From NCBI GenBank assembly GCA_902543295.1, contig CACBXW010000001.1, forward strand, positions 186,001 through 250,000: a DNA stretch of 64,000 bases, read 5' to 3'. The notes beneath the pieces are model-generated. The model ran no database searches. It had not been told where the DNA came from and worked only from the letters and a program-made list of their open reading frames with translations. Below are positions 9,270 through 54,373 of this stretch, one piece after another; the stretch's first letter is position 1, and each line of letters starts with the position of its first letter. The DNA is from an uncultured Pelagibacteraceae bacterium. GTDB lineage: Bacteria; Pseudomonadota; Alphaproteobacteria; Pelagibacterales; Pelagibacteraceae. Made by a program: the position numbers and the translations under genes.

Positions 9270-9286
9270 CTAATAACGTAACACAA

Positions 9287-9451: not shown

Positions 9452-9452
9452 T

Positions 9453-9489: not shown

Positions 9490-9496
9490 AAAAGTT

Positions 9497-9718: not shown

Positions 9719-9731
9719 TTACATACCTCCT

Positions 9732-11132: not shown

Positions 11133-11143
11133 ATTTCTCTCTC

Positions 11144-11160
11144 CTATTAATAGTTAATAG
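11144..11160 (-). promoter_or_regulatory. Inverted repeat at the amt ribosome-binding site
   Basis: On the minus strand CTATTAA-CTA-TTAATAG is a perfect inverted repeat with 7-base arms. Its last bases run into the AGGAGAG ribosome-binding site of amt, about 12 bases before the ATG. It could be a protein-binding site or a weak RNA hairpin that affects initiation. AT-rich DNA yields short palindromes by chance, so this is tentative. Confidence 0.35.
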
Positions 11161-11248
11161 ACTCTATGAAATTTTTTTTACGCTGACAATTTTATTTTAT
11201 TTATAAAAAGTAGAAGTTAATAATTATTTTATCAACTTGAAATTGAAA

Positions 11249-11659: not shown

Positions 11660-11667
11660 ATTTGCTA

Positions 11668-14843: not shown

Positions 14844-14860
14844 ATAATTTCCTTATTAAA

Positions 14861-16330: not shown

Positions 16331-16397
16331 TCTTCCCCCTTTGAATTTTCAGATCAAAAAGGTAACTGAAAAAAAAACGTTTGTCTACTTAGATAAA

Positions 16398-17726
16398 TTA
16401 GCTCCAAGGAAACGGACTGTTCGATGTCGGATGAAGTTTTCCTTTTTCATATCTATCGAACCTAAACGGTTTTAATAATTCACTTTCATGACCTAAAATT
16501 TCTTGTGCAACAAGGTGACCAACACCTATCATTTTATAACCATGATTTGCATCTGCAATCATGTAAACATTTTCAAAAAATCTATCGAATATTGGGAATG
16601 AATCTGGAGTTAAACAACCCAATCCTCCTGATGGTCCCTTTCTATACAGATGAGATTTACCAACAAAACGTTTTTGAATATGTGCAAGTGCTGAAGTCCA
16701 CATATCAGAAAATTTATCAGTAGTTTGATATTCTGGAGAATCTATCCCATACGGATCAACATTAACTTCATCAAAATGTTTTTGAACAATGTAAGGTGAT
16801 GTTCCACCTTGAACTCCCAATCCTTCAATATCAGGTTTATAATAAATACCCCATAAGTCTTCTGTAATTATTTTACCATCTTTGTCAGAATAAAGTGGCG
16901 CATCTGTATCAACATGAATTACTGGAGGCGGTTTACCTTCATTAGTTTTTAAACAATCTGCATCCACACCCAATACACCTTCTTGTAAAAACCAGTACTT
17001 CCACATTTCAACTTCATGCATTTTTCCATTTTTAGCATCTTTTATGTTTGTAGTTTTTGGTAACTCCAACATATTCCAAAAATCTCTTACCCATGGTCCT
17101 GCTCCAATAACTACCTGATCACAATCAATTGTACCTTTATCTGTAACCACGCCAGTAATTGCATTGCTGTTGCTCCCTCTTTTAAAACCTGTAACCTTTA
17201 CTCCTTTATGAACGTTTACACCGTTTGAATTTGCTTTTTTCTCCAGTGCTTTAATTGAGTCCTTATTAAATGCATATCCACCTTTTTTTTCATGCAAGAC
17301 TGATGTAATACCTTTTGCTTGCCAATCACTAAAAATTCCTTGCATATATTTCATGCAATCTTTTTCACCTTCTATAAATTCTGATTCATATCCAATAGCT
17401 TTTTGTTGTTCATAAATACTTGCAACATCTTTATGCATTACTTCCGGAGAAATTTGCATATAGCCAACAGCATTATATTTAAATGCCTCTGGATCACTTT
17501 CCCAAACACTAACTGAATGAGCCATTAATTCTCTCATTGCTGGTTGAAAATAATTATTTCTAACAACTCCACATGCAATTCCACTTGCACCTGCAGCAGT
17601 GTCTTTTTTTTCTAAGACAACTACATCGTTTGGATTTTTATATTTTTCGGAAAGTTTCCAAGCAGTACTTAACCCGTGAATTCCTCCACCAATTATTACA
17701 ACTTTTGCTTTTGTCGGTAACGACAT
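16398..17726 (-). CDS. FAD-dependent amine oxidoreductase (DAO/SoxB-like, possible MgdA-type)
   Basis: A 442-residue flavoprotein of the D-amino-acid-oxidase/sarcosine-oxidase-beta superfamily. KVVIIGGGIHGLSTAWKLSE is the FAD-binding Rossmann motif, AGASGIACGVVRNNYFQPAM follows it, and MIADANHGYKMIGVGH closes the FAD domain. Such enzymes oxidise N-methyl or secondary amines. Lying upstream of a glutamine-synthetase-like enzyme and the MgsABC-like set, it could oxidise N-methylglutamate. However, the usual partners MgdB, MgdC and MgdD are not adjacent; a four-subunit set resembling them lies at 38261-43358. The substrate is inferred. Confidence 0.8.
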   Translation of the reverse strand: MSLPTKAKVVIIGGGIHGLSTAWKLSEKYKNPNDVVVLEKKDTAAGASGIACGVVRNNYFQPAMRELMAHSVSVWESDPEAFKYNAVGYMQISPEVMHKDVASIYEQQKAIGYESEFIEGEKDCMKYMQGIFSDWQAKGITSVLHEKKGGYAFNKDSIKALEKKANSNGVNVHKGVKVTGFKRGSNSNAITGVVTDKGTIDCDQVVIGAGPWVRDFWNMLELPKTTNIKDAKNGKMHEVEMWKYWFLQEGVLGVDADCLKTNEGKPPPVIHVDTDAPLYSDKDGKIITEDLWGIYYKPDIEGLGVQGGTSPYIVQKHFDEVNVDPYGIDSPEYQTTDKFSDMWTSALAHIQKRFVGKSHLYRKGPSGGLGCLTPDSFPIFDRFFENVYMIADANHGYKMIGVGHLVAQEILGHESELLKPFRFDRYEKGKLHPTSNSPFPWS

Positions 17727-17815
17727 GAAAGAACTTTAATTTTTTAGCAAAGGAAAGAATATAATAATTTTTATATATAATTTATATAAATTCTAAATAT
17801 TTATTAGATTTTTAA

Positions 17816-18166
17816 TTAAAAACTCAAATTTTTGAGAGTTTTCAAATATTCGTTAAATTCATTAACAAAATTCTGTGTGGGTAAAACGTACTTTTTTCTA
17901 TGGTCATTTCCGGTTTTCTCGAGGTAAAAAAATTCTTTATCACAAGCTTCTTTGATCATGAGTGCAGATTTGGGTCTAGAGGTTTTGAAAAGTCTAGTCT
18001 TAAGTTCTTCGACAGATAAGTTTTCATTTAATTTATAGGAATTCATCACAATCAACATCATGTGATAATGTGAAGGAGACTTTCTGAAAAAGTAATTACT
18101 GGATGTATGGGACAGTTTCATTTGATCTTCCCAAAATTCCAGTAAATCCTTTGATGATTTTGACAT
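17816..18166 (-). CDS. MarR-like winged-helix protein
   Basis: A 116-residue soluble protein. LSVEELKTRLFKTSRPKSAL resembles a helix-turn-helix, followed by a probable wing FFYLEKTGNDHRKKYVLPT, which is close to the DxRxKxxxxT wing pattern of MarR regulators. It is shorter than typical MarR (about 140), and the N-terminal dimer helix looks reduced. The start overlaps the tdm stop by one base, so the gene is co-transcribed with TMAO demethylase and may regulate that locus; palindromes suited to a dimer lie in the tdm-tmoX intergenic region. DNA binding is inferred from the motif, not shown. Confidence 0.6.
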   Translation of the reverse strand: MSKSSKDLLEFWEDQMKLSHTSSNYFFRKSPSHYHMMLIVMNSYKLNENLSVEELKTRLFKTSRPKSALMIKEACDKEFFYLEKTGNDHRKKYVLPTQNFVNEFNEYLKTLKNLSF

Positions 18167-20505
18167 TAAGATTTTACACGTGTTTTTTGAGGATCGTAAT
18201 GCGGGAAACCAACAATTTTAGCAGGTATTCTTTTTTGATGTCCATCAATTTTACCGACTTCAACGTTCATACCTATTTCTGAATGACCTACATCAATTCT
18301 GCACAAAGCAATATTTTTATTCAAAGTAGGAGATAGACATCCGCTTGTAACTACGCCAACTTGGGATCTTCCAATGTGAACGCAATCACCGTGATTAGCT
18401 TTTTCTTTGCCTACAAGTTCTAATCCAACTAATTTCTTTTGTGGATTTTCTTTTCTCTTTATTAATGCTTCTTTACCAATGAAATCTGCTGTTTTTGTTT
18501 TTAAAGGAACCGTAAATCCAACACCAGCTTCAAAAGGGTCAACTTGGCCGTCAAATTCATTACCAAATAATATTAGTCCAGCTTCAATTCTTAATAAATC
18601 TAATGCTCCAAAACCAGCAGGTATTATTCCTTCATCTTTGCCAGCTTCCATAAGCACATCCCAAACTGCTGGTGCATCTGAAGGGTGACACCATATTTCG
18701 TATCCTAACTCGCCTGTGTATCCAGTTCTAGAAACCATTAATGGAATTCCACTAAGTTCTTTTACTCTACAGATTGTAAACCTAAACCATTGTAATTCTG
18801 AAATAGAAGGTTGTGTTGGTGGAGTAAAAATAAACTTTTCTAAAATTTTTCTACTGTTAGGTCCTTGTAGAGAAATATTATTTATTTGGTCAGTAGAGTT
18901 TTTAACTAAAACATTAAATTTTTTCTTTTTTGCTTGTTCTTTTAACCATTCACCTGCGTATTCATCACCACATACCCATCTAAATCCATGATCACTCATT
19001 TTTAACAATGTTCCATCATCAAACATAGAACCATTTTCATAACACATCGAAGAATAAACAATTTGTCCAACTGACAATTTTTTAACATTTCTTGTTAAAG
19101 TATAGTCCATTAATTCTTCTGCATCTGGACCTAATATTTCAAATTTTCTTAAAGAAGATAAATCAATTAAAACTGCTTTTTCTCTACACGCTGTATATTC
19201 ATTTATTACTCCGTGTTTAGTGTAATCATTGGGCAGCCAATATCCTCTAGCATCAACAAAATTTCTTGTTAACTTTGAAGTTCTTTCATGAAATCCTGTA
19301 TTTTTTGTTAGTTTTAATTCTGAGTCTGGTTTCATTCTAAATGCAAAAGATTTTGTAAATTCTCTTTTTTTTTCGTAAGTTCTAACAAAAATATCTGTAG
19401 GGTTCCATGAATTACATGGATCTATATCACTTGGACAGGCTGATGTTCCGCAGGTTAAATCTTTTAAAGCTCTTAATATTACATAATCTCCAGGTCTAGC
19501 AAATGACTCATCAGAAAGTACGGTATTTAAGCCTCCTGCTGAAGTATTAAAAAATAAATTTATAGCGTGCCATCCCTTTTGTCTATTAACCCCAAAATTT
19601 TCCATAGCACCACTTAAGTTATCTGAGCAATTTGGATGCCCAAAATAACCAGCATCTTCGTAATACTTCGATGTACAAGCAAGATTAAAAGTGTCATGTC
19701 TACCAACAGTATCTCTTATTACTTCTACTAAAGGCTCATGGTCTGTATCATAAAATTTTGAATACAATCCTGGTCCTGGAAATGTATTTCCCATAAAGGT
19801 CCTGGTTGTTTGCCAATCTAAACCTTTTTCAATACCTTTACCCAATTTAGCTGTATCAAAAGCAACAAAATCTGAACATTGTCTACCAGTTGGACAAATT
19901 ATTTGAATATAATCTCCTTCTTTAACTTCAAAAGAAATCGCTGATTGTTTTGCAATATTTTTTTCGTCTAGAGGATCAAAAATTGGATCTGGAATTATTC
20001 TATGTTCTTTATAGTCAACAATATTATTTCTTTTAATAAATAAAGTTAATTCTGTAGGAGGATTTTGTTCATGAACCAACATATCATTACCAGGTGCAGA
20101 AAAAATGCAATAACATTTATCTTTTGAACTTATTTTAATTTTTTCTCCTGGTGGAGTGTCTTTATCAAAAAGGATTGAGGATTTAGATTTTGCAATTTTA
20201 AGATTTCTTTTTTCTAATTGGCGCAAAGCAATTTTCGAACTTTCTTCGTTTCTATTTAAAATTTTAATTATATCATTTTCTGATTTAGATGATTTTAAAT
20301 TTAAAATTGATGGATCTGAATTTCCATCAGAATTAAAAACAACTATTTCACAAATTTGATTTCCTTCATTATTAATAATTTCAATTTCATCATCCGGAAA
20401 AACCTGAACTCCTGTTAATCCACCGCCATTAACTACATATCTTTCAACCCCAGGTGGCAAAACATTTAAACCAGGTTCATTTATTCTTAAATTTTCTTCT
20501 AACAT
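18166..20505 (-). CDS. tdm: Trimethylamine-N-oxide demethylase (aldolase)
   Basis: A 779-residue two-domain enzyme that splits TMAO to dimethylamine and formaldehyde, which can be captured on tetrahydrofolate. Residues about 180-370 are a DUF1989-type metal domain with CPTGRQCSDFVAFD and a Cys-rich CGTSACPSDIDPCNSWNP that should hold the zinc site. From about 405 to the end is a GcvT/aminomethyltransferase-type folate domain, with VCGDEYAGEW, SRTGYTGELGYEIW and a terminal FPHYDPQKTR. Domain order and length match characterised Tdm. It is transcribed divergently from the TMAO-type importer at 20647, which strongly supports the call. It overlaps the MarR-like gene by one base. Confidence 0.93.
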   Translation of the reverse strand: MLEENLRINEPGLNVLPPGVERYVVNGGGLTGVQVFPDDEIEIINNEGNQICEIVVFNSDGNSDPSILNLKSSKSENDIIKILNRNEESSKIALRQLEKRNLKIAKSKSSILFDKDTPPGEKIKISSKDKCYCIFSAPGNDMLVHEQNPPTELTLFIKRNNIVDYKEHRIIPDPIFDPLDEKNIAKQSAISFEVKEGDYIQIICPTGRQCSDFVAFDTAKLGKGIEKGLDWQTTRTFMGNTFPGPGLYSKFYDTDHEPLVEVIRDTVGRHDTFNLACTSKYYEDAGYFGHPNCSDNLSGAMENFGVNRQKGWHAINLFFNTSAGGLNTVLSDESFARPGDYVILRALKDLTCGTSACPSDIDPCNSWNPTDIFVRTYEKKREFTKSFAFRMKPDSELKLTKNTGFHERTSKLTRNFVDARGYWLPNDYTKHGVINEYTACREKAVLIDLSSLRKFEILGPDAEELMDYTLTRNVKKLSVGQIVYSSMCYENGSMFDDGTLLKMSDHGFRWVCGDEYAGEWLKEQAKKKKFNVLVKNSTDQINNISLQGPNSRKILEKFIFTPPTQPSISELQWFRFTICRVKELSGIPLMVSRTGYTGELGYEIWCHPSDAPAVWDVLMEAGKDEGIIPAGFGALDLLRIEAGLILFGNEFDGQVDPFEAGVGFTVPLKTKTADFIGKEALIKRKENPQKKLVGLELVGKEKANHGDCVHIGRSQVGVVTSGCLSPTLNKNIALCRIDVGHSEIGMNVEVGKIDGHQKRIPAKIVGFPHYDPQKTRVKS

Positions 20506-35682: not shown

Positions 35683-36464
35683 TGAAAAGAATTCTGATAG
35701 TTGAAGGTAACCTTAGAGAAGAAAATCAAAGCTTTACTGATGGTGGAATTAAAACTCATACTGAAAGTTTAAAAGACAGTATTAGTTATTTTACAGATCA
35801 ATTAGATATTGATGTTGTTAATCCTTCATCAGATGAAAATATTAATGAAGTAGCTAAAGATTTAACTAAATATCATGGAATGATATGGGGTGGTAGTAGT
35901 TTAAATATTTACAATGATACTCCAGAAATAAGAAGACAATTAAACTTTATGAGGGAATGTCAAAAGAATATAAAAAATATATTCGCAATATGTTGGGGAA
36001 TGCAAGTTGCTGTGACCGTTGCTGGCGGTGAAGTAAAGAAATGCCCTAATGGCGCTCACAGGGGAATAGCTCACGACATAGAAATAAACGAAAATGGTCT
36101 TAAACATCCGCTTTATAAAAATAAAAATAAAAAATTTAATACCCCTGCATTTAATTTTGATGAAGTTGTAAAATTACCTGAGGGCTCTACATTACTTTCA
36201 TCAAATCCAATAAATAAAGTCATGGGTATAAATTTTAATGTTGGTTCAACGAATATATGGGGAATACAATATCACCCAGAAATAACTTATGCCAAAATGA
36301 TAAGCTTAATTCATTTTAGGAGAGATCGACTTTTAGAAAAAAAAGCATTTATTGACCAAATGGAAATAGACTCTCATATAAAAATTATAGAAGATGAAAA
36401 TAAAATTTCAAATAAAGATGCAAGGATGAGAGAATTAGAAAACTGGCTAAATAATTTAAATTAG
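35682..36464 (+). CDS. Class I glutamine amidotransferase-like protein
   Basis: A 260-residue protein with the GATase-I fold. The nucleophile is C104 in [10 protein letters not shown], with H198 and E200 in YHPE completing the triad. No synthase domain is attached, so it is not GuaA itself; it is closer to stand-alone GMP-synthase-like amidotransferases and gamma-glutamyl hydrolases. Since nearby genes make gamma-glutamyl amides of methylamine, it might hydrolyse a gamma-glutamyl compound. It overlaps the alcohol dehydrogenase by one base, and its stop shares four bases with the convergent fhs stop. Confidence 0.8.
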
Positions 36465-38140
36465 AACAAGCCTTCTATTTCACCTTTTTCATTAAGCTTA
36501 ATAGAGTCTGCTGCAGGAACTCGAGGAAGTCCTGGCATTGTCATGATGGCTCCGCATATAACAACAATAAATTCTGCACCTGAAGATAATCTTACTTCTC
36601 TAATTGGTAATGAATGGCCTGTTGGAGCACCTTTTGCATTTGGATCAGTAGAAAAACTATATTGTGTTTTTGCTACGCATATAGGTAAATTTCCATAACC
36701 CGCTTCTTCAAAAGATTTTAATTGATCTTTTATTTTACTGTCAGCAACAACTTCGTTTGCTCGGTAAATTTCTTTCGCAACAGTTTCAACTTTCTTTAGT
36801 AAAGGTGTTTTTTCATCATATAAAAATTTAAAATTTGCTTTTTTTTGATCAATTAAATCTACAACATGTGTGGCAAGTTCTTTTGTTCCTTCACCACCAT
36901 TTGACCAATGAGTACATAAAGTAGCTTTAACTCCCATATTATCACAAGCATTTATTAACTCTTTTACTTCATTATCAGTATCGGCAACAAAATGATTAAC
37001 AGCAACCGCTACCGGTAAACCAAATTTTTTTACGTTTTCAATGTGTCTTTCCAAATTTACCAAACCTTTTTTTAACGCGTCTACATTTTCATTTTTTAAA
37101 TCACCTTTAGCTACACCGCCGTGCATTTTTAATGCTCTAATTGTTGCAACAATAACTACACACTCAGGTTTTAAATTTGATTTTCTACATTTAATATCTA
37201 AAAATTTTTCCGCTCCTAGGTCTGCTCCAAATCCAGCTTCAGTTACAACATAATCAGCTAGTTTTAAACCTGCTTTAGTTGCTATTACAGAGTTACAACC
37301 GTGCGCAATATTTGCAAAAGGACCACCATGAATAATTGCTGGATTATTTTCTAAAGTTTGAGTTACATTAGGTCTAATTGCTTCTTTCAACAAAACAGTC
37401 ATTGGTCCATGAGCATTTAAATCTTTTGCAAAAATAGGCTTTCTATCTCTAGTATAAGCAACTGTAATATTACCGATTCTCTTTTCCAAATCTTCAAGAT
37501 CATTTGCTAAACAAAAGATAGCCATTATCTCTGATGCTACTGTAATATCAAAACCATCTTCTCTTGGAAAACCATTCGCAACTCCACCCAAATTAATATT
37601 GATAGATCTTAAAGATCTATCATTCATATCCATAACTCTTCTCCAGACTACTCGTCTTACATCTATGTTTAATTTATTTCCCCAATAAATATGATTATCA
37701 ATTAACGCTGACAATAAGTTGTGAGCAGATGTAATTGCATGGAAGTCTCCTGTGAAATGTAAATTGATTTGTTCCATTGGAACAACTTGAGCATATCCTC
37801 CACCTGCTGCCCCACCTTTCATTCCAAATGAGGGACCTAAACTAGGTTCACGTAAACACACTATAGAATTTTTACCAATTTTATTTAATCCATCATTTAA
37901 ACCAACTGACGTAGTAGTTTTTCCTTCACCTGCAGGAGTTGGTGTAATAGCAGTAACTAAAATTAATTTTCCATTTTGTTTATCTTTTAAACTATCTAAA
38001 TATTCTAAATTTACTTTAGCAATATGACGTCCCATAGGACTAAAAGCACTTGGTTCATCTGGAACATTAATTTTACCCAAAATCTCATTTATGGGTTTCA
38101 TTTTTGCTTCTCGTGCAATTTGGATATCTGATTTTGACAT
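36461..38140 (-). CDS. fhs: Formate--tetrahydrofolate ligase
   Basis: A 559-residue enzyme that joins formate to tetrahydrofolate with ATP, giving 10-formyl-THF. [19 protein letters not shown] is the nucleotide-binding loop, and [20 protein letters not shown] and [15 protein letters not shown] are classic Fhs segments. Length is standard (about 555-560). It is transcribed toward the amidotransferase with no spacer. It connects C1 units released by TMAO, sarcosine and dimethylglycine breakdown to the folate pool, either for biosynthesis or, run in reverse, to release formate and ATP. Confidence 0.97.
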
Positions 38141-38260
38141 AAATCTAATTACTTATTAATGAGCAGAATTACTATCCTTTTTTGTCACGTATTTAAACAT
38201 CTAAAAAATATATATAAAAAAAATTAGCAAAACTTATATTTAATTTTATAAAACTTACGG

Positions 38261-39517
38261 ATGCAGAAATATTCAGTATTTAGTCTAATCAAAAACGCTT
38301 TCTCCAATCACCAAAATTGGGAAGTTGCTTGGAAAGATCCAACTCCAAAAAGTGAATATGATGTAGTCATCATCGGAGGTGGAGGACACGGTCTTGCTAC
38401 TGCATATTATTTAGCAAAAGAACATAATATTAGAAATGTAGCTATCATTGAGAAAGGCTGGATTGGTGGTGGAAATGTTGGTCGAAATACAACGATCATA
38501 AGATCAAATTTTATGTACGATGCTAATGCAAGGTTTAATGAATTTGGAATGGATTTATGGAGAAACTTAAGTCAAGAACTGAACTTTAATGTGATGTTTT
38601 CTCCAAGGGGAATAATAAACTTAGCCCACTCTGATGCTCAAATGAACGCATATGCTCGTAGAGGAAACTCTATGAGATTAAATGGAATAGATGCAAAGTT
38701 ATTGGATAGAGACGAAGTTAAAAAATTAATTCCAATGGCTGACTTTAGTGATGAAGTACGTTTTCCAATTTTTGGAGGCTTAATGCAACCAAGTGCTGGT
38801 ACCGCAAGACATGATGCTGTTGCTTGGGGTTATGCGCGTCAAGCAGATGATATGGGTGTAGATATAATTCAACATTGTGAGGTCACTGGTTTTGATGTTG
38901 TTAACGGAAAGATAAAAGGAATTAGAACTTCAAGAGGAGATATTAAAGCAAAAAAAGTTGGATTATGTGTTGCTGGTAGCACAAATATATTAGCTGAAAA
39001 ATTAAATATGACACTGCCAATAGAAACTCACGTACTACAAGCTTGTGTTTCAGAACCTGTAAAACCATTATTAGACGGAGTAGTAACTTTTGGTGCAGGC
39101 CACTTTTATATAAGTCAATCAGATAAAGGTGAGATGGTAATGGGTGGTGATCTTGATGGATATAATAGTTATGCTCAAAGAGGTAACTTGCCAACTATAC
39201 AACATGTCTTGACAGGTGGCTTAGCTTTGTTTCCATTTTTAAGTAGATTAAAAATGTTAAGGACATGGGGAGGGATCATGGATATGTCTATGGATGGTTC
39301 TCCAATAATTGATAAAACACATATTGAAGGTTTATATTTAAATTGTGGATGGTGTTATGGAGGTTTTAAATCAACCCCTGTTTCAGGTTGGACATTTGCA
39401 CACACAATTGCGCAAGATAAAGTTCATGAATTAAATTCAGAATTAAGATTAAATAGATTTTCTACAGGTCATCTTCTAGATGAAAAAGGTTTAGGAACTA
39501 AAACCTGGATTGGTTAA
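38261..39517 (+). CDS. soxB: Sarcosine oxidase beta subunit (SoxB; MgdA homologue)
   Basis: A 418-residue flavoprotein, first of four subunits. MQKYSVFSLIKNAFSNHQNW is the usual SoxB start, and YDVVIIGGGGHGLATAYYLA the FAD motif (about 33-52). ARDUOUS-type covalent-FMN regions are present in outline, and GLYLNCGWCYGGFKSTP is a conserved C-terminal segment. The heterotetramer oxidises sarcosine to glycine and passes the methyl group to tetrahydrofolate. The same four-subunit design is used by N-methylglutamate dehydrogenase (MgdABCD), so either substrate is possible. The other subunits follow with 3 bases or less of spacing. Confidence 0.9.
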   Translation: MQKYSVFSLIKNAFSNHQNWEVAWKDPTPKSEYDVVIIGGGGHGLATAYYLAKEHNIRNVAIIEKGWIGGGNVGRNTTIIRSNFMYDANARFNEFGMDLWRNLSQELNFNVMFSPRGIINLAHSDAQMNAYARRGNSMRLNGIDAKLLDRDEVKKLIPMADFSDEVRFPIFGGLMQPSAGTARHDAVAWGYARQADDMGVDIIQHCEVTGFDVVNGKIKGIRTSRGDIKAKKVGLCVAGSTNILAEKLNMTLPIETHVLQACVSEPVKPLLDGVVTFGAGHFYISQSDKGEMVMGGDLDGYNSYAQRGNLPTIQHVLTGGLALFPFLSRLKMLRTWGGIMDMSMDGSPIIDKTHIEGLYLNCGWCYGGFKSTPVSGWTFAHTIAQDKVHELNSELRLNRFSTGHLLDEKGLGTKTWIG

Positions 39518-39520
39518 AAA

Positions 39521-39790
39521 ATGTTATACATCAAATGTCCTTATTGCGGTTTAAGAGCACAAAAAGAATTTTCATATGGAGGTGATGCAACTGTAAAAAG
39601 ACCTAATATAAATGAAGAAGTATCAAGTGAAGATTGGGATAATTTTGTTTATATGAGAAAAAGTCCAAGAGGTAAACATATAGAGTTATGGCAACATATA
39701 GCAGGATGTAGACAATGGATTAAGGTGCAAAGAGACACCGCTACACATGAAATTTTCCAAACAGCAAAAGTCACAGAAGAAATAAGATGA
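39521..39790 (+). CDS. soxD: Sarcosine oxidase delta subunit (SoxD)
   Basis: An 89-residue zinc-binding subunit. The ligands C6, C9 (KCPYCG), H59 and C63 (HIAGC) are all present at the positions expected for SoxD, and FSYGGDA and WDNFVYMRKSPRGKHIELWQH are family hallmarks. It starts three bases after soxB and overlaps soxA by four (ATGA). It stabilises the heterotetramer with SoxA. Confidence 0.93.
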   Translation: MLYIKCPYCGLRAQKEFSYGGDATVKRPNINEEVSSEDWDNFVYMRKSPRGKHIELWQHIAGCRQWIKVQRDTATHEIFQTAKVTEEIR

Positions 39791-42783
39791 GCCAACCATT
39801 TAGATTAAATAAAGAGGGATTAATTAATCGAAACAAAAAAATATCTTTTACTTTTAACGGAAAAAAATTATTTGGATATGAGGGAGATACAATTGCATCT
39901 GCTTTGATTGCAAATGGAATACATTTAGTTGGTAGAAGTTTTAAATATCATAGACCAAGAGGTTTTTTTGGAGCAGGAGTAGAGGAACCAAACGCAAAGC
40001 TTCAAGTAGAATTCAATGGTCATTCAGAGCCAAATGTTAATGCAACAGAAATGGAACTCGTTGAAGGTTTGTCCGCAACGAGCCAAAATTGTTGGCCATC
40101 AGTTAATTTTGATGTCGGTGCAATTAATAATTTTTTAAAAATGTTTTTCCCTGCCGGGTTTTATTACAAAACATTTATGTGGCCTAAAAGTTTCTGGTAT
40201 AAAATTTACGAACCTTTCATAAGAAAAGCTGCAGGTTTAGGGGTTGCTTCAATAGAAAAAGATAAAGAAAGATACGAACATAAATTTGAGTATTGTGATC
40301 TACTAGTTACTGGATCTGGGCCATCTGGATTAGCAAGCGCCTATGCTGCTGCAAAAAATGGAGCAAAAGTAATTTTAGCTGAGGATAAACCAAGATTTGG
40401 AGGAACACTTTTAACCGACGATGTAAGCATCGATAATTTATCAGGAAAAGATTGGGCAGAAAAAATAATTAGTGAATTAAAATCTATGCCTAATGTCACT
40501 GTAAAAAATAGATCTCAAGTTTTTGGTTACTATGATCATAATATGCTGGTTATGTTTGAGAGAGTTAGTGATCATTTAGAGAAAAAATCAAAATTCACTC
40601 CAAGACAAAGACTTTGGTATATTAGAGCCAAAGAAACAATTTTATCAACTGGTTCAATTGAAAGACCAATTGTATTTGGAAACAATGATACTCCAGGAAT
40701 TTTTTTATCAGCAGCTGCAAAAGAATATATGAAAGTCTATGGAGTTTTAGTAGGAAAAAAACCTTTAATATTTACTAATAACGATAGTGCATATGAAACA
40801 GCTTTAGAGTTCAAAAAAAATAATGTTGAACCAATTATATTAGATACTAGAGAAGAACATTCATCAGAATTAATCGATGAAGCTAAATCAAAGGGAATTG
40901 ATATAAGATTTTCCCACGGTGTTATCGTCGCTAATGGATACAAAAAAGTTAAATCTGCAAAAATTGGTAAACTAAATAAAGATAAAAATTCTTTTGAGAA
41001 AATTGAAACTGTTGATTGTGATTGTATTTGTGTATCTGGATTTTGGACTCCATCTGTTCATTTAGCGTCACAATCAGGAAATAAACTTAAGTATGAAGAA
41101 AAAATTGATGCATTTATTCCAGATAAGAAAAAACAACATGAGACATCAGTCGGTGCAGCAAATGGATCATTTACATTAGAAGAAAGTTTAAAACATGGTT
41201 TTGAAAATGGTTCAAATCTTTCCGCAAAAATTACAGAGACTAAAAAAGAAATCTCAATTCCAAATGTAAATGAAAAAAAATACGGAGCTCATGATAAATT
41301 TTGGTGTATGCCGTTACCTAAAAATGAAAATCCAAAAAGATTTGTTGACTTTCAAAATGATGTATCTGTCTCTGATATAGAAATCGCACTAAGAGAAGGT
41401 TACAGATCAATAGAGCACGTCAAAAGATATACAACTCTTGGAATGGCAACAGATCAAGGCCGTACAAGTAATTTAAATGGTCTTCAGTTGGTATCTAATA
41501 TAGAAAATAAAATAGTTCCTGAAGTGGGACACACAACATTTAGACCACCTTTCACACCAATTACAATCGGGACAATAGTTGGTCGTGAAGTTGGTATGGA
41601 ATATATGCCGACTAGAAAAACTCCAATGCATGAATGGCATGAGAAAAATAATGCTGTATTTGTTGATGCAGGTGCTTGGAAAAGACCTCGATATTATAAG
41701 CAAGGAAGTGAAACTTTATTTGAAGCTTCAAAGAGAGAGGCAAAAAATGTTAGAGAGAATGTTGGTATATGCGATGTAACAACATTAGGAAAAATTGATA
41801 TTAAAGGTCCAGATGTGGCAGAATTTTTAAATAGAGTTTATACAAATGCTTGGATGAAATTACCTGTTGGAAAAGCAAGATATGGATTGATGCTTAGAGA
41901 AGATGGAATTGTCATGGACGATGGAACAACAACAAGAATTTCTGAAAATCATTATCATATGACAACAACAACTGCACAAGCTGCAAATGTTTTATCTCAC
42001 TTAGAATATTATCTTCAAATTGTTTGGCCAGAATTAAATGTAAATGTTGTCTCTACAACTGAGCAATGGGCAGGGGCTGCAATTGCTGGACCTAAATCTA
42101 GAGAAATGTTATCAAAATTATATCCGGACTTAGACGTATCAAATGAAGCTTTGCCTTTTATGGGCTATAAAGAATCAGAATTTTTTGGTGTTCCATCAAG
42201 AATTTTTAGAATTTCATTTTCTGGCGAGCTTGCATATGAGATTAATGTCAAATCAGATCATGGTATGTTCATGTGGGAGAAAATGATGGAAGTAGGAAAA
42301 GAATTTGGAAATCAGCCTTACGGAACTGAAGCTTTATCAACATTAAGAATTGAAATGGGACACGTTGCAGGACCAGAATTAGATGGACGAACAATTCCAT
42401 CAGATGTTTCATTAAATGGATTAGTTTCAAAGAAAAAAGATTTTATTGGCAAAAATTCTTTAGGAAGAGAAGCATTTAATGTTGAGAGCAGACAAAAAAT
42501 TGTCGGACTTATTCCAATTGATAGAAAGTCTAGTATTCCTGAAGGATCTCATATTGTTCAAGATCAGAATGCAAAATTACCTAATCCTAAACTTGGTCAC
42601 GTTTCTTCTTCTTGTTGGAGTGTAGAAAATAATAATCCATTTTCTCTAGCAATTATGAAAGATGGAAAAAACATGATAGGTAAAAAGTTTTTTGCGGTAT
42701 CACCATTAAAAAATAAATCAATTGAAGTAGAAGTTATATCTTCACATTATGTTGATCCTGAAGGAAAAAGAGTTAGATCATGA
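39787..42783 (+). CDS. soxA: Sarcosine oxidase alpha subunit (SoxA)
   Basis: A 998-residue subunit. The N-terminus has a small 2Fe-2S-ferredoxin-like fold without cluster (SFTFNGKKLFGYEGDTIASA). The middle is an NAD-binding Rossmann region, YCDLLVTGSGPSGLASAYAA at about 168-187, followed by the catalytic connection. The last ~380 residues are a GcvT-type tetrahydrofolate domain (VGICDVTTLGKIDIKG, RISFSGELAYEINV). Folate binding lets the enzyme trap the methyl group as methylene-THF. Standard length. It overlaps soxD and soxG by four bases each. Confidence 0.94.
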   Translation: MSQPFRLNKEGLINRNKKISFTFNGKKLFGYEGDTIASALIANGIHLVGRSFKYHRPRGFFGAGVEEPNAKLQVEFNGHSEPNVNATEMELVEGLSATSQNCWPSVNFDVGAINNFLKMFFPAGFYYKTFMWPKSFWYKIYEPFIRKAAGLGVASIEKDKERYEHKFEYCDLLVTGSGPSGLASAYAAAKNGAKVILAEDKPRFGGTLLTDDVSIDNLSGKDWAEKIISELKSMPNVTVKNRSQVFGYYDHNMLVMFERVSDHLEKKSKFTPRQRLWYIRAKETILSTGSIERPIVFGNNDTPGIFLSAAAKEYMKVYGVLVGKKPLIFTNNDSAYETALEFKKNNVEPIILDTREEHSSELIDEAKSKGIDIRFSHGVIVANGYKKVKSAKIGKLNKDKNSFEKIETVDCDCICVSGFWTPSVHLASQSGNKLKYEEKIDAFIPDKKKQHETSVGAANGSFTLEESLKHGFENGSNLSAKITETKKEISIPNVNEKKYGAHDKFWCMPLPKNENPKRFVDFQNDVSVSDIEIALREGYRSIEHVKRYTTLGMATDQGRTSNLNGLQLVSNIENKIVPEVGHTTFRPPFTPITIGTIVGREVGMEYMPTRKTPMHEWHEKNNAVFVDAGAWKRPRYYKQGSETLFEASKREAKNVRENVGICDVTTLGKIDIKGPDVAEFLNRVYTNAWMKLPVGKARYGLMLREDGIVMDDGTTTRISENHYHMTTTTAQAANVLSHLEYYLQIVWPELNVNVVSTTEQWAGAAIAGPKSREMLSKLYPDLDVSNEALPFMGYKESEFFGVPSRIFRISFSGELAYEINVKSDHGMFMWEKMMEVGKEFGNQPYGTEALSTLRIEMGHVAGPELDGRTIPSDVSLNGLVSKKKDFIGKNSLGREAFNVESRQKIVGLIPIDRKSSIPEGSHIVQDQNAKLPNPKLGHVSSSCWSVENNNPFSLAIMKDGKNMIGKKFFAVSPLKNKSIEVEVISSHYVDPEGKRVRS

Positions 42784-43358
42784 AAAATGTTTCTGCACTA
42801 GAAAATATTCATAAACATGGATTGTTTGGCAATCACGATAGTAAAGATGAGCTAATAAATATTAGAGAAATCAAAGATGTTTTGATTTATCAAATTGTTA
42901 AATATAAAAAATCTTCAATTAGTATTGATAAAATAAAAATAGATAATTTAAATTTACCCGAGACACTTTTGGTTTCTTCAAATAAAAATACAAGAATTTT
43001 ATGGATGGGACCTGATAATTGGTTAGTCGTTTCAAAAAATAAAGAAATAGAAAAATCTATTTTAGAGAACTTAAGTCATGATGATTTTGCATTAACAGAT
43101 CTATCTCATTCAAGAACAATACTGGAATTGGAAGGTTCATTAGTAGATGAAGTATTGAAAAAAGGTTGTCCGTTAAATTTAGATGGTCTTGATGAAGGAA
43201 AATGTTCTAATTCTGCTTTTCATGCAATTACAATAACTATTGATTTTATAAGTTCAAATCCAAGAAAAGTTAGAATGTTTGCTTTAAGAAGTTTTGGTGA
43301 ATCTCTTTATCATTCAATAACTGATGCTTGTTTAGAATTTGGATATAAAGCTGAATAA
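42780..43358 (+). CDS. soxG: Sarcosine oxidase gamma subunit (SoxG)
   Basis: A 192-residue subunit that caps the tetramer. ILWMGPDNWLVVS, FALTDLSHSRTILELEG and LKKGCPLNLD match SoxG. The start overlaps soxA (ATGA). Only three bases separate its stop from that of the convergent transporter gene, so there is no terminator hairpin between them. Confidence 0.9.
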   Translation: MKNVSALENIHKHGLFGNHDSKDELINIREIKDVLIYQIVKYKKSSISIDKIKIDNLNLPETLLVSSNKNTRILWMGPDNWLVVSKNKEIEKSILENLSHDDFALTDLSHSRTILELEGSLVDEVLKKGCPLNLDGLDEGKCSNSAFHAITITIDFISSNPRKVRMFALRSFGESLYHSITDACLEFGYKAE

Positions 43359-48211: not shown

Positions 48212-49180
48212 ATGAATTATCGAATTGATAATCTTCAGTATTGTAAATGGTCTAGAGAAATCTTTGAAATAAATAATAAAGCTGGATTAAATGCGGTTCA
48301 CGTAACGTTAGTTTATCATGAAGACTATGATGAATTACAACAAAGAATACATGAGTGGAATAAACATTTTGAAGAAAATAAAGATCTTATATTTCTAGGC
48401 AATAACTACAATGATATTACAAAAGCAAAAGAAGAAAACAAAACTGCAATTTTTTTTGGATTTCAAAATTGTTCTCCAATTGAAGATGACATAGGTCTTA
48501 TAGAAAAAGTACACTCACAAGGTTGTCGATTTATGCAATTAACTTATAACAACCAATCATTATTAGCTACTGGATGTTATGAAAAAAATGATAGCGGAGT
48601 TACTAATTTTGGAAAAGAGGCTATTAAAGAAATGAATAGAGTAGGCATCGTTGTTGACATGTCTCATTCAGCAGAGAAAAGTACACTTGATGCAATTGAA
48701 ATTAGCCAAAAACCTATTGCGATCACTCATGCAAATCCAACTTTTTGGTTTGAAGCGAAAAGAAATAAATCTACAGAATTATTAAAAGTTTTATCCGATA
48801 GTGGAGGAATGTTAGGGTTATCATTGTATGCTCATCATTTAAAAGATGGAACGAATTGTAAAATAGAAAGTTTTTGTGAAATGGTTGCAAGAACAGTTGA
48901 AATTATGGGTATTAATAATGTTGGTATAGGATCAGACTTATGTTTGAACCAACCAGACAGTGTAGTTGAGTGGATGAGAAATGGAACATGGTCAAAATCA
49001 AAAAATTTTGGTGAAGGCAGTAAAGATAAACCTGGTTTTCCAAAACAACCAGATTGGTTTTTGGATGCAAGAGGATTTAATAATATAAACACAGAACTAA
49101 AAAATAAAGGTTTTCACGAAGAAGAGATAAATAAGATACTTGGCAATAACTGGTTTAATTTTTATAAAGGAATTAATTAA
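48212..49180 (+). CDS. Membrane dipeptidase family (peptidase M19)
   Basis: A 322-residue metalloenzyme of the renal-dipeptidase type. VVDMSHSAEKSTLDAIEISQ and PIAITHANPTFWFEAKRNKS hold the metal-binding His residues, and GIGSDLCLNQPD holds the later Asp. The usual N-terminal H-x-D is not plain: the chain begins MNYRIDNLQYCKWSREIFEI, so the first metal ligands may be changed. No signal peptide, so cytoplasmic. It overlaps the 550-residue unknown by one base, and a four-gene operon follows. The substrate (dipeptide, D-amino-acid derivative, or other amide) is unknown. Confidence 0.85.
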   Translation: MNYRIDNLQYCKWSREIFEINNKAGLNAVHVTLVYHEDYDELQQRIHEWNKHFEENKDLIFLGNNYNDITKAKEENKTAIFFGFQNCSPIEDDIGLIEKVHSQGCRFMQLTYNNQSLLATGCYEKNDSGVTNFGKEAIKEMNRVGIVVDMSHSAEKSTLDAIEISQKPIAITHANPTFWFEAKRNKSTELLKVLSDSGGMLGLSLYAHHLKDGTNCKIESFCEMVARTVEIMGINNVGIGSDLCLNQPDSVVEWMRNGTWSKSKNFGEGSKDKPGFPKQPDWFLDARGFNNINTELKNKGFHEEEINKILGNNWFNFYKGIN

Positions 49181-50832
49181 TGCAAGTTCCTCTAAGAGAT
49201 CCTAAAATTGTAATGAAACTCTCTAGACTTGGATCGTTTCATCAATCTAAATTATCTTTTCTAAGATCATTTTTAAATGAGTTCAAAGATTGGAAATATA
49301 ACAGAGATTTGTTTGACTTGAATGATAGGGGATATGGAGTTGCTATATATTCATTTTCAAAAGATAAAAAAACATATTCTTTAGTTTGTTTTGCTAATGA
49401 GCTTAAAGATGAGGAAAGATCTGATAGAGTAATAGCAACTAAATGGGATGCTGCATTTGCTTTGTATGATGGCATTCCTTCAAAACTTGATATAGATAGA
49501 CTTTCACAAAATGTCCCTAAACAAGAAGTTGGTAGACTTTCTTATAAAGAACTAACTCTTTCAAGAGCAAATAGGTCAGTTAGAGCATTTAATTATGTGG
49601 TTGAGTGTTTATCAAAAGGTATCCAGCCAAATACTAATGAGCTTTCAAAAGTTGGATATTTGTACAGAACAACCGCCGTATATGGCTCAGGAAAATTTGG
49701 ATTAGCAGACAGGTTTAGAATTAGAAATAGAGATGAAATAAATGGTCCTTTTAGATTGGAAATGATGTTAGTTTACCTTGTAAGACAATTCACTTTTGAT
49801 CAGGTCAATCATATAGCAAAACATAAAAATCCTAAAGACGCTGTAGAATTAGACTTGGATATTTGCAGAAATTTAGGAATTGGAAATTCAACTGGATTAG
49901 GAATGGCACCATTTATTGTTAACCATCCTTCATTGTTAAATAATTGGATTCTAGCTAAAGAGAAAGCTTTAAAAAAAATAAGAGAAATAGAAAAAGTATC
50001 AGAAGAAGAATTTAAAATTTTTTACAACTGTTTAACAAAATCTTTAAAAAATGTGACTTCATGGAATACTGATAGCGAATATCAAAAGAAAAAAATTGAG
50101 AATTTAATTAATGATTTACAAAATTTAATCAATTATTTGAAAGATAATATTGATAAATCAAATTTTTATATATTTGACAAATTATATAACTGGGCAGAGG
50201 AAAATTTATCTGAAGAAGGAGTTGAGTATTTAGTTTCTATAATGATGGAGCCATATAATCAAATAACTGATCCTTTAATTTCTCAAATGAGTTCAGACGA
50301 GGATAAAAGTTTTAATATACCTGTAGACAGAACTATAAATGACCTAAGAGAAATAATTGAGAAAAATTATTCAGATATTTTAAAAATTGATTTTTCGAAA
50401 AATGAAAATAATAAAAAATTTTGGTTCATATCAAAAAATAAAGAAGAACCTAGGATTGGAGATCGGTTCGAAGATAATGGTTCAGAACTCGAACAGCCTA
50501 CGGCTATTGCTAGAGATATAAAAAAACTTTATGAAACTATTTTTAATTTAAAAAACAGCTTAAAGATTGGTAATTTTCTAGTACAGAACAATGATTTAAG
50601 ACATATTGTAAGAAGAGTGTTTATAACAGAGAAATATCCATATTCCGAAATTCAAGATAACACCATTGGCTCAAAATTAGTTCCTATTGATATGTTAAGA
50701 CTTAAACTATCTTTTTTTGGGGCGGTAAAGTTTGATCCAAGATCTGACAAATGGTTAAGGATTTGTATGTTTCAAGGAGCTCCATTACCAAATGAACTAA
50801 ATTCATTTAATCAATATTGGATATATAACTAA
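49180..50832 (+). CDS. Large conserved hypothetical protein
   Basis: A 550-residue soluble protein that I do not recognise. No signal peptide or membrane helix. The N-terminal half has an ordered look, with YGVAIYSFSKDKKTYSLVCF, SDRVIATKWDAAFALYDGIP and LGIGNSTGLGMAPFIVNHP. The middle (about residues 265-340) is a Lys/Glu-rich helical region with coiled-coil character, and the end (RFEDNGSELEQPTAIARDIK, FGAVKFDPRSDKWLRICMFQ) is again compact. It overlaps the M19 gene by one base and is followed after eight bases by a DUF3726 gene, so these are surely co-transcribed. No function is claimed. Confidence 0.75.
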   Translation: MQVPLRDPKIVMKLSRLGSFHQSKLSFLRSFLNEFKDWKYNRDLFDLNDRGYGVAIYSFSKDKKTYSLVCFANELKDEERSDRVIATKWDAAFALYDGIPSKLDIDRLSQNVPKQEVGRLSYKELTLSRANRSVRAFNYVVECLSKGIQPNTNELSKVGYLYRTTAVYGSGKFGLADRFRIRNRDEINGPFRLEMMLVYLVRQFTFDQVNHIAKHKNPKDAVELDLDICRNLGIGNSTGLGMAPFIVNHPSLLNNWILAKEKALKKIREIEKVSEEEFKIFYNCLTKSLKNVTSWNTDSEYQKKKIENLINDLQNLINYLKDNIDKSNFYIFDKLYNWAEENLSEEGVEYLVSIMMEPYNQITDPLISQMSSDEDKSFNIPVDRTINDLREIIEKNYSDILKIDFSKNENNKKFWFISKNKEEPRIGDRFEDNGSELEQPTAIARDIKKLYETIFNLKNSLKIGNFLVQNNDLRHIVRRVFITEKYPYSEIQDNTIGSKLVPIDMLRLKLSFFGAVKFDPRSDKWLRICMFQGAPLPNELNSFNQYWIYN

Positions 50833-50840
50833 AGTAATTA

Positions 50841-51449
50841 ATGAGAAGTTATAGTGAAATTGACACGATTGTTAAACGCTCAACAAAAGCGAAAGGATTC
50901 TCCTGGGGAGTTGCAGAAGAAATAGGAAAGAACATCAAGCAACTCGAGTTATTTGGTTTACCAGGTATAAAAAACATAAACCAATATTTTAAGATTTTTA
51001 ATAATGAGAAGTTTGAAAATTGCCAATCTTTTAACAAAAGCAACAGACCTCAAAACTTTTATTGTCCAATTAAACTTGGATTAAGTTTTTTTGATCAATC
51101 TATCTCTATCCAAGAACTAAATGATATAGAAATTGAAAAAATGGCTTACCCATTGATATTTTTGCCGTTTGTCAGCAGATCTTCGGAAATAACGGGAAAG
51201 AGAATTTTTTTAAAGATAGATCAAAAAGAATTTTTATTAAATTTCAATCAATCAATTTATTCAAATTATTTAAGTAGTGAGGTTGTAGAAAAAGCTGATG
51301 TAATTAAAATCCAATTCTTAGAAAACAAGAATAATTTTTCCGAAGAAGATTGGAAAGAATTAACAAAATTATCTGAAAACACATTTGTAGAAGAAACATA
51401 TGAGTTAAAACAAAAAACCGCAGGAGCAGGATTAACAGATAATGACTGA
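50841..51449 (+). CDS. DUF3726 family protein
   Basis: A 202-residue soluble protein. The start RSYSEIDTIVKRSTKAKGFSWGVAEEIGKN is characteristic of DUF3726 proteins as I recall them, which have no known function. The rest is a mixed alpha/beta chain with an acidic tail. It starts eight bases after the 550-residue gene and overlaps the 55-residue zinc-ribbon gene by eight bases. The context (dipeptidase, large unknown, zinc ribbon) suggests these act as one system. Confidence 0.7.
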   Translation: MRSYSEIDTIVKRSTKAKGFSWGVAEEIGKNIKQLELFGLPGIKNINQYFKIFNNEKFENCQSFNKSNRPQNFYCPIKLGLSFFDQSISIQELNDIEIEKMAYPLIFLPFVSRSSEITGKRIFLKIDQKEFLLNFNQSIYSNYLSSEVVEKADVIKIQFLENKNNFSEEDWKELTKLSENTFVEETYELKQKTAGAGLTDND

Positions 51450-51609
51450 TAACTTTGAATATAAATCAGACAATTCAGATAATAATGAATTAAATGATAT
51501 TTGTGATGAATGTAAAAAAGAAGATGAGACAGTAACTCAAAATTTAATACTCACAGGATATAAACTTTGCAACTCCTGCAGAACATCAAAAACTTTATTT
51601 CCACTTTAG
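51442..51609 (+). CDS. 55-residue zinc-ribbon protein
   Basis: A very small ORF starting inside the end of the DUF3726 gene. The acidic, Asn-rich start (MTDNFEYKSDNSDNNELNDI) is followed by CDEC at residues 21-24 and CNSC at 43-46, an ideal four-Cys zinc-binding pair separated by 18 residues. The overlap with the upstream gene and the two CxxC pairs argue for a real gene. Its stop shares four bases with the convergent Yip1-type gene. Function is unknown; a small partner or regulator of the DUF3726 operon is plausible. Confidence 0.7.
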   Translation: MTDNFEYKSDNSDNNELNDICDECKKEDETVTQNLILTGYKLCNSCRTSKTLFPL

Positions 51610-52296: not shown

Positions 52297-53652
52297 TCAC
52301 TTATTAACTACTTCTCTTGTATTTGCGTTGTAAGATTCTGTAAATGGAACATCAACTACAACTGCATCGACCGGTTCTCCAGGTTTATCAGAATATTTTT
52401 CTGGTAGGTGGACTTTAAATTTCGATCCAACCTTACCCTTTGGAAAACCATTTGCATTTAGCGTGCCATCAAATGGAACGTATCCCATGGCAATATTTTT
52501 CCCTTTTTCTGGGTGATACCAAGGAGAAGTTATAAATCCTACAGGCTCACTGCCGTTTTCTGAAATTAACCAAAAATCTGGAGCATATTCTTCAATAGGT
52601 TTTCCTCCTAATTCAAGTCCAACTAATTGAAGTTTGTAAGGTTTATGACCTGCTTTTAAATCAGCTTTCATTTTCTCGAGAGCTTTTTTACCAATGTAAT
52701 CTGCTTTTTTGTTCCATTCACCTTTACCAGATAAAGAAACTTGATATCCAAGATTACATTGAAATGGATTATGCTCATGATCCATATCTTGTCCCCATGA
52801 AAGAATTCCAGCTTGTATCCTTCTATGGTGTGCAGGAGCAATTACCATTAAGTTATGTTTTTTACCTGCTTCAAGAACAGCATTCCACATATCTTCGGCA
52901 TATAAAGTTGCTTCTCTTAAATATATTTCAAATCCAGACTCGCCTGAAAAACCTGTTTGAGAAATTATACAACTTCTTCCACCAACTTTTGCAGAAGCCA
53001 ATCCATAAAAAGGCATGTTATCAATATCAACTTCACTTCCACAAAGATCTTTCATCAAAGCTTTTGCTTTAGGACCTTGAATTTGTACAGGACAAGCATC
53101 TATTTCATTAATTTGAACATTAAACCTTTCATCTGCATTTACTCCTTGCAGATATAATCCTATATCACTATCTGATAAACTAAACCAAAATTCATCTTTA
53201 GAAATTCTTAAAAGAATAGGATCATTTAATACTCCTCCATAAGAATTACACAAAATTACATATCTTCCTCTCATTGGAGAAATTTTTGTAGCATCTCTTG
53301 TAATTACATAATCAACAAATTTTTCTGCATCTGGTCCTTTAACTTGTATTTGTCTTTCAACTGCAACATTCCACATTGTTACATGGTTTTTAATTGCTTC
53401 GTACTCAACCATTGCACCACCATCTTCAGGTTTAACATAACCTCTTGGATGATAAATTCTGTTATAAACAGTTGCTCTCCAACATCCTGCTTTCATAGAT
53501 AAATGCCAGTATGGAGATTTCCTTACTCTTGTTGATATTAGCATCTCAACTTTAGTAGGTCCGCTTTGCCTTAAATTGTATGGTACTTTTCTATCAGACT
53601 GATCTACTGATGTTGTATGTCTTAGTTTACTATAGTCAAATTCATTAGACAT
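52297..53652 (-). CDS. GcvT/DmdA-superfamily folate-dependent demethylase (unassigned)
   Basis: A 451-residue protein of the aminomethyltransferase/DmdA family, which moves methyl groups from S, N or O compounds onto tetrahydrofolate. VERQIQVKGPDAEKFVDYVI, RDATKISPMRGRYVILCNSY, FWFSLSDSDIGLYLQG and SQTGFSGESGFEIYLREA resemble DmdA in the same order. It is about 80 residues longer than Pelagibacter DmdA (about 370), with an N-terminal extension before the TRVRKSPYWHLSMKAG region. It overlaps a MetF-like gene by eight bases, so the acceptor product is probably 5-methyl-THF. DMSP demethylase itself is not supported; the substrate is open. Confidence 0.8.
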   Translation of the reverse strand: MSNEFDYSKLRHTTSVDQSDRKVPYNLRQSGPTKVEMLISTRVRKSPYWHLSMKAGCWRATVYNRIYHPRGYVKPEDGGAMVEYEAIKNHVTMWNVAVERQIQVKGPDAEKFVDYVITRDATKISPMRGRYVILCNSYGGVLNDPILLRISKDEFWFSLSDSDIGLYLQGVNADERFNVQINEIDACPVQIQGPKAKALMKDLCGSEVDIDNMPFYGLASAKVGGRSCIISQTGFSGESGFEIYLREATLYAEDMWNAVLEAGKKHNLMVIAPAHHRRIQAGILSWGQDMDHEHNPFQCNLGYQVSLSGKGEWNKKADYIGKKALEKMKADLKAGHKPYKLQLVGLELGGKPIEEYAPDFWLISENGSEPVGFITSPWYHPEKGKNIAMGYVPFDGTLNANGFPKGKVGSKFKVHLPEKYSDKPGEPVDAVVVDVPFTESYNANTREVVNK

Positions 53653-54373
53653 AGTTATTCTCCTTCAACCACTTGTTAGTTTCCTTCAAGCCGCCGAATG
53701 TATAAATGTGGAAATAATCAGTATGCGATTTAACTTTCCCAATTAAATCATTAGGGTCTTTAGGTTTCAATAAATCTAACGCCTTACTAAAATTAGATTT
53801 AAGAAAGTTAATGGAATTTTTTGCCCCTACAATATTAGCAAATTTAATTAAGCTAGATATTTTCATTGGCCCAGTTATTCCAACATGAACTGGTATTGTT
53901 TGTTTTGAGATAAAATCTATAATAGGCTGAGTATCCATTAGCCATTGTGTAACTATATAATCAGCATAAGGCTTTTTATCTATCATAGCTTTTTCTAAAT
54001 CAGAGTCGGATATATCAGGACTCCCCTCGGGATGTCCAGCAATTCCAATCTTGATACCATCAAAAAACCCTGTCTCTAACATTTGATATGAGCTATCAAA
54101 TTTTCCGATCGGGTCACGACTTCCACCTATCACCAAGACCTGCTTAACACCCAAATCTTTACATCTAGAAACATAATCTTTTAGCTGATTTTCATCATTT
54201 ATTGACCTTGCTGGGAAGTGAGGAACTGGATTAAATCCCTCTTTAACTAAATCTCCAGATTGTTGAGCAGTCTCTTTATAATCACCTCCAGGTAGCATTG
54301 TAACATAAACATCTTTTACCTTAGGCAACGTACTTAAATCAGTTTTAGGACCTATTTCTAAAGAAAAATTCAT
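53645..54373 (-). CDS. metF: Methylenetetrahydrofolate reductase-like protein
   Basis: A 242-residue protein of the MetF barrel family, shorter than E. coli MetF (296). EIGPKTDLSTLPKVKDVYVT stands where the N-terminal strands begin, and HFPARSI, VLVIGGSRDPIGKF, GIAGHPEGSPD and YIVTQWLMDTQPIIDFISKQ match family segments for folate and FAD binding. As partner of the DmdA-like enzyme it could run in the 5-methyl-THF to methylene-THF direction. It is the first gene of its unit, divergent from egtB. A truncated or clade-specific variant is likely. Confidence 0.82.
   Translation of the reverse strand: MNFSLEIGPKTDLSTLPKVKDVYVTMLPGGDYKETAQQSGDLVKEGFNPVPHFPARSINDENQLKDYVSRCKDLGVKQVLVIGGSRDPIGKFDSSYQMLETGFFDGIKIGIAGHPEGSPDISDSDLEKAMIDKKPYADYIVTQWLMDTQPIIDFISKQTIPVHVGITGPMKISSLIKFANIVGAKNSINFLKSNFSKALDLLKPKDPNDLIGKVKSHTDYFHIYTFGGLKETNKWLKENNYV

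Follow-up and report, generated by a model that had tools for sequence, protein, structure and literature searches.

A conserved M19–U550–DUF3726 gene module of SAR11 as the probable form of a homarine catabolic operon

The four genes at positions 48212–51609 of a 64,000-nucleotide stretch of DNA from an uncultured Pelagibacteraceae bacterium (contig CACBXW010000001.1, positions 186,001 to 250,000, of assembly GCA_902543295.1, a 1.31-Mb assembly of 17 contigs; the whole stretch is called the window below) are probably the SAR11 form of an operon for the catabolism of homarine (N-methylpicolinate). They had been assigned in a preliminary description to a defined but undescribed process; the gene content, the types of transporter encoded beside the same genes elsewhere and the linkage to genes of N-methylglutamate dehydrogenase (Mgd) point to homarine catabolism instead, and it is from these that we infer the identification. 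SAR11 bacteria are among the most numerous cells in the ocean, and homarine is an algal compound. It is a phytoplankton osmolyte quickly drawn down by a model Roseobacter (PMC12817926). If the identification is true, the operon is a marker of homarine consumers, and two of its products, the proteins named U550 and DUF3726, are a pair whose chemistry remains the interesting part. The genes of the operon are the following:

48212–49180, + strand: homologue of M19-family (renal-dipeptidase-like) amidohydrolases with an altered metal site, 322 aa (Pfam M19, E 1e-70)
49180–50832, + strand: U550, a conserved protein without a recognised fold, 550 aa (no Pfam and no PDB match)
50841–51449, + strand: DUF3726 protein, the constant partner of U550, 202 aa (PF12525, E 8.3e-18)
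51442–51609, + strand: zinc-ribbon protein with two CxxC pairs, an accessory of the SAR11 group, 55 aa

The tight packing noted earlier is borne out in open reading frames, coordinates and junctions: the M19 and U550 genes overlap by 1 base, those of U550 and DUF3726 are 8 bases apart, and those of DUF3726 and the zinc ribbon overlap by 8 bases. Co-conservation and recurrence in Roseobacters and other Alphaproteobacteria had also been predicted, and both hold for M19, U550 and DUF3726, which are a conserved module and a real operon, beyond chance. The claim of a four-gene unit stands for these three and falls for the zinc ribbon, a SAR11-only addition in the loci examined. Among the best 80 of 543 U550 matches in Pelagibacteraceae records, a strongly redundant set with many near-copies (identity 75–100%, mostly 93–100%), the three genes are present, adjacent and in the same order in all 80 loci. 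A less redundant sample consists of 41 genomes of the window's order (SAR11 relatives), many of them incomplete; U550 was found in 26 and DUF3726 in 25, with presence or absence agreeing in 40 of the 41, and in the only discordant genome (G008) the U550 match spans residues 1–383 alone.

Across the class, U550 homologues were detected in 53 of the 385 genomes sampled, while no U550 relatives were found in the viral contigs scanned. Of the 58 places listed in the class search 49 were fetched; left out were the place of the window itself, another fragment of G386 that one of the fetched stretches already covered, and seven places that are fragmentary (G104, G114, G117 twice, G124 twice and G128). 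With 13 plasmid loci hand-picked among 168 records and six loci from the window's order, the 49 fetched places make up a set of 68 loci. DUF3726 is present in 65 of these and, with adjacency scored by stop positions, lies immediately 3' of U550 in 64. The exceptions are a natural U550–DUF3726 fusion in Mesorhizobium 131-2-1 (L101), a locus whose DUF3726 position is lost to a contig end (L197), a U550 with a 310-residue C-terminal extension and a weak DUF3726 match (L211; E 0.2), and a locus with no DUF3726 detected in the examined stretch (L209). In 45 of the 68 loci the M19 gene lies directly 5' of U550 and in the same orientation; 61 have it somewhere in the stretch. Identity between the window proteins and the copies in Roseobacter and Mesorhizobium operons is 52–58% for M19 and 46–48% for U550.

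In several of these genomes the module is part of a fuller operon, LysR–ALDH–M19–(BCCT)–U550–DUF3726–Ldh, where ALDH stands for aldehyde dehydrogenase. It is present in Ruegeria TM1040, Phaeobacter inhibens P66, Aliiroseovarius, Pararhizobium and Aminobacter, and also in Mesorhizobium, there with U550 and DUF3726 fused; some full operons end in BCCT or glycine-betaine ABC transporter genes. Phaeobacter inhibens DSM 17395 and Sulfitobacter carry the set without Ldh. The LysR-bearing set was found in Roseobacter plasmids; the SAR11 form is M19–U550–DUF3726 with no adjacent LysR. On a Pseudomonas plasmid the set is arranged in two divergent arms, with no Ldh in the stretch, and on a haloarchaeal plasmid, whose stretch contains no M19, U550 and its partner lie beside a BCCT transporter and an ALDH. 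Of the 68 loci, 24 have an ALDH, 26 an Ldh, 15 a LysR gene, 21 a betaine transporter of BCCT or ABC type, and 10 a sox-type alpha subunit. The operon ALDHs score best against 2,5-dioxovalerate and alpha-ketoglutaric semialdehyde dehydrogenases, all below cut-off, and these scores are consistent with a C5 semialdehyde substrate. Two genomes of another family within the SAR11 order (G038 and G027) encode Ldh (51 and 53%, against the Aliiroseovarius Ldh) and ALDH (37 and 36%) convergent to U550–DUF3726. In the U550 tree SAR11 falls within a 40-row clade (100/99) holding the Roseobacter operons, and adjoins two small genomes (L183 and L185) in which ALDH and Ldh occur together with a betaine ABC transporter.

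The link to N-methylglutamate is a physical one in three Roseobacters. In the plasmids of Ruegeria TM1040, Aliiroseovarius and P. inhibens P66 the operon adjoins genes for a complex of four subunits that bears a sarcosine oxidase annotation; the examined stretches of DSM 17395 and Sulfitobacter do not contain it. The alpha subunits of these three heterotetramers nest among Mgd references, labelled as such by neighbouring gmaS and mgs-type genes or dmm genes, and are split from sarcosine-oxidase references, labelled by glyA with serine ammonia-lyase or by ETF and BCCT with purU, with support of 99/100 and 100/100 in two trees; the first tree contains long branches (L203 and L222), and in both the SAR11 rows have an odd letter make-up. 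The participation of Mgd in homarine catabolism is stated in a published paper (PMC13390433).

From these observations we infer a substrate, an order of steps and a role for each protein. Homarine would be imported by the betaine-type transporter, and U550 together with DUF3726 would attack the N-methylpyridinium ring, which opens, with C6 split off. The modified M19 protein would then hydrolyse the resulting C–N bond (amide or N-formyl-like), one carbon leaving, probably as formate. The C5 semialdehyde would be oxidised by the aldehyde dehydrogenase, the methyl-imine reduced to N-methylglutamate by the Ldh-family enzyme, and N-methylglutamate turned by Mgd into glutamate and a folate-bound C1 unit. 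In the SAR11 bacterium of the window the ALDH, Ldh and Mgd steps would need unlinked genes. Those of its genes that bear on N-methylated amino acids are:

38261–43358, + strand: heterotetrameric oxidase/dehydrogenase of N-methyl amino acids, soxBDAG type (soxB and soxA pass their NCBIfam cut-offs, soxG does not)
38261–39517, 39521–39790, 39787–42783 and 42780–43358, + strand: soxBDAG-type subunit genes (soxD read from sequence alone)
7944–9269: gmaS, type III glutamate-ammonia ligase, above its cut-off
11668–14843: mgs-type genes (mgs-like glutamate synthase parts)

The gmaS and mgs-type genes indicate that N-methylglutamate metabolism is present. The soxBDAG-type genes lie 5 kb upstream of the operon, and the genome encodes two full-length sox-type alpha subunits in all. 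That the soxBDAG-type genes of the window are the Mgd of the operon is not supported by the side of the tree on which they fall or by their loose co-distribution with U550; their product is a possible downstream step.

Several points weigh against the assignment to homarine. The alpha subunit at 38261–43358 is placed in the unrooted tree on the sarcosine-oxidase side, on a long SAR11 branch, and not with Mgd. Of the 26 U550 genomes 14 have a relative of it (at least 70%), namely 13 of the 15 from the genus and one of the 11 from the other family. Five genomes of the same genus have such a relative but no U550 (G001, G006, G009, G017 and G021), and the link is therefore loose. No ALDH adjoins the window operon, and the best ALDH matches of the genome are at 31–33%; its best Ldh is only 34%, and the same Ldh type is present in relatives without U550. 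With these partners neither adjacent nor found as close homologues, the pathway of the window is incomplete on this evidence. The reference labels in the alpha-subunit trees derive from gene neighbours, not from assays, and are not clean, as glyA or purU also stands beside some Mgd references. Among the 68 loci ALDH was unseen in 44 and Ldh in 42, some stretches being cut by contig ends, so that parts of the family probably use other substrates. On the Pseudomonas plasmid, finally, the alpha subunit of a Rieske-type dioxygenase is encoded about 7 kb from U550, and enzymes of this type act in stachydrine demethylation.

The Rieske-type gene also favours a rival explanation, in which the substrate of the module is a different cyclic N-methylated compound draining to N-methylglutamate (such as trigonelline, N-methylproline, stachydrine or an N-methylpipecolate), homarine being one of several across the family. 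The deep branches of the U550 tree (L109–L113, L206 and L209–L211) have no operon-type ALDH or Ldh in the stretches read, so that the U550 family probably serves more than one substrate; the neighbours there include IclR genes (in L110 and L112) and ABC transporters that bear no betaine-type annotation, and N-methylproline could, by reasoning, give N-methylglutamate via a semialdehyde and ALDH. As an account of the SAR11 operon this explanation is nevertheless judged rather unlikely: SAR11 U550 lies outside the deep branches and groups with operons having ALDH, Ldh and betaine transporters, and, Pseudomonas excepted, none of the operon stretches read from Alphaproteobacteria has an annotated Rieske demethylase. 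Distant sets of U550, a DUF3726-like gene and M19 were also observed in L110, L111, L112 and L206, with M19 downstream and an ABC ATPase nearby; in L110 the M19 gene is split over two frames, and L112 has IclR, Rid and FAD genes as well. A different substrate is likely for these sets.

The individual proteins can be related to the assignment to homarine as follows. The M19 protein is a clear member of its family (PF01244, 238.8 bits against a cut-off of 26), and the alteration of its metal motif noticed in the preliminary description is real and goes further than was said there. The canonical ligand positions, which we take from renal dipeptidase to be HxD, Glu, His and His, are only partly kept: HxD is absent in all nine aligned subfamily members with the N-terminus present (the tenth, L104, starts late), and Gln85 occupies, in ten of ten, the alignment column in which canonical M19 enzymes have Glu. 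His152, His173 and Asp242 are kept in the aligned subfamily, both ligand histidines of the catalytic dipeptidase set thus being retained. The nearest solved relative, the M19-type amidohydrolase of PDB entry 2i5g (E 1.7e-58), is likewise without HxD and has Gln for Glu; its source is presumably PA5396, which the literature search did not confirm. With HxD absent and Gln85 in place of Glu, a conventional two-zinc dipeptidase is unlikely, and a hydrolase acting on another C–N bond is proposed. An ordinary peptide-recycling operon around a membrane dipeptidase, as the family name and the sequence family of M19 would suggest, is thus barely credible, and partners such as an aldehyde dehydrogenase, Ldh and betaine transporters also speak against it.

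U550 has no recognisable relative outside its own family. The window protein has no Pfam match at E ≤ 0.1 (best E 0.35) and none in the PDB (best E 0.81), and 15 homologues gave two single-member Pfam hits only (E 0.053 and 0.08); the match to a known family of unrelated role, which was named earlier as the outcome that would speak against a distinct process, was thus not found. Thirty-five columns are invariant across 15 diverse sequences, and the conserved motifs include YGSGKFG, GIGNSTGLGMAPF and EEPRIG, none of them recognised as a cofactor site. The AlphaFold2 models built from SAR11-only alignments are poor for both U550 (pLDDT 48.3) and DUF3726 (pLDDT 35.7).

DUF3726, not mentioned in the literature covered by a term search, is recognised by PF12525 with 64.5 bits against a cut-off of 22.1, and is probably a decayed N-terminal domain of Ldh_2 (PF02615, malate/L-lactate dehydrogenase), to judge from profile comparisons. 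Aligned by hhalign to the operon Ldh family it reached Prob 56.9, and with a deeper alignment Prob 68.6 (E 4.6e-5), the N-terminus of DUF3726 and that of Ldh_2 matching start to start; eight unrelated families (M19, ALDH, LysR, BCCT, OpuAC, OpuAA, SoxB and SoxG) gave Prob 0.0–1.7 and three reversed alignments Prob 0.1. The haloarchaeal U550 partner (L109) matches Pfam Ldh_2 with E 4.8e-9 and 36.2 bits, just under the 38.8-bit cut-off; it also matches, with E 1e-8, a DUF3726 profile from which it had been left out. The DUF3726 protein of the window itself gave no Ldh_2 hit in the Pfam scan; Ldh_2 has about 335 aa and DUF3726 about 200, with no catalytic region recognised in the latter. A profile match between DUF3726 and U550 (Prob 98.6) was discarded as an artefact of the C-terminal extensions in the fusion L101 and in L211; it drops to Prob 0.5 when all rows are trimmed to the ends of the window protein and to 0.4 without these two loci.

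Taken together, and only tentatively, U550 and DUF3726 may be the two subunits of an enzyme that acts on the N-methylpyridinium ring and represents a new structural family; DUF3726 would be a remodelled, non-catalytic Ldh_2 N-terminal domain; M19 would be the metal-site-altered hydrolase for the ring-opened product, and the sister branches would serve other cyclic betaines.

The 55-aa zinc ribbon, for which the Pfam search gave a sub-threshold ZZ hit alone (E 0.0091), was seen across the loci examined only in SAR11 of the window's family, as a local addition. It is present in 79 of the 80 SAR11 loci (the sole miss, L035, is at a contig end), in 13 of 14 same-genus loci of the 41-genome set and in three of four additional same-genus loci; both CxxC pairs are kept in 92 of 93 readings. 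That the operon serves a defined but undescribed four-protein process centred on this small protein is made conceivable by the overlapping reading frames and by these conserved pairs, yet is very improbable: the ribbon is absent from the SAR11 loci of other families, from two loci of the same genus (L003 and L176) and from every non-SAR11 locus examined, Roseobacter and rhizobial ones included, whereas M19, U550 and DUF3726 are mostly retained. The view of it as a defining part of the operon is not supported. In three SAR11 loci (L040, L066 and L093) about 3.4–4.1 kb of extra DNA separates the zinc ribbon from the Yip1 gene.

Other genes of the window also concern methylated amines and one-carbon units. 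A methylated-amine island at 7944–20505 comprises gmaS, an ammonium transporter, the mgs-like parts and a protein with DUF1989 and GCV_T domains, a domain pair by which we take it to resemble trimethylamine N-oxide demethylase. At 36461–43358 a gene of formate-tetrahydrofolate ligase is divergent from the genes of the soxBDAG-type complex. The alpha subunit of this complex makes up a SAR11 branch of its own, separate from the Mgd references as well as from those of ordinary sarcosine oxidase. Downstream of the operon, at 52297–54373, the gene of a DmdA/GcvT-like protein (its DmdA score is 239 bits, the cut-off 410), possibly a folate-dependent demethylase, overlaps an MTHFR-like gene, and the pair is found near the operon in 78 of the 80 SAR11 loci. 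In Pseudosulfitobacter (L224:1300–10481) an Mgd-like complex lies near genes of N-formylglutamate deformylase and formimidoylglutamate deiminase.

Two known systems can be compared with the operon. The trigonelline pathway TgnABCD proceeds by oxidative opening of an N-methylpyridinium carboxylate followed by an aldehyde dehydrogenase and amide hydrolysis, and is a possible working analogue; its flavin-dependent monooxygenase is not among the conserved genes here, with no search aimed at a monooxygenase having been made. Closer is the homarine operon homABCDER, which a 2026 paper in Nat Microbiol reportedly describes from Rhodobacterales, SAR11 and SAR116, with N-methylglutamate as the product. 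Compared with it, the window carries M19–U550–DUF3726 and the zinc ribbon, whereas ALDH, Ldh and the regulator are not adjacent. At the level of overall make-up, the reported gene number of homABCDER fits the fuller Roseobacter operon of five structural genes and LysR, and the two would share the link to N-methylglutamate dehydrogenase and a taxonomic spread that includes SAR11.

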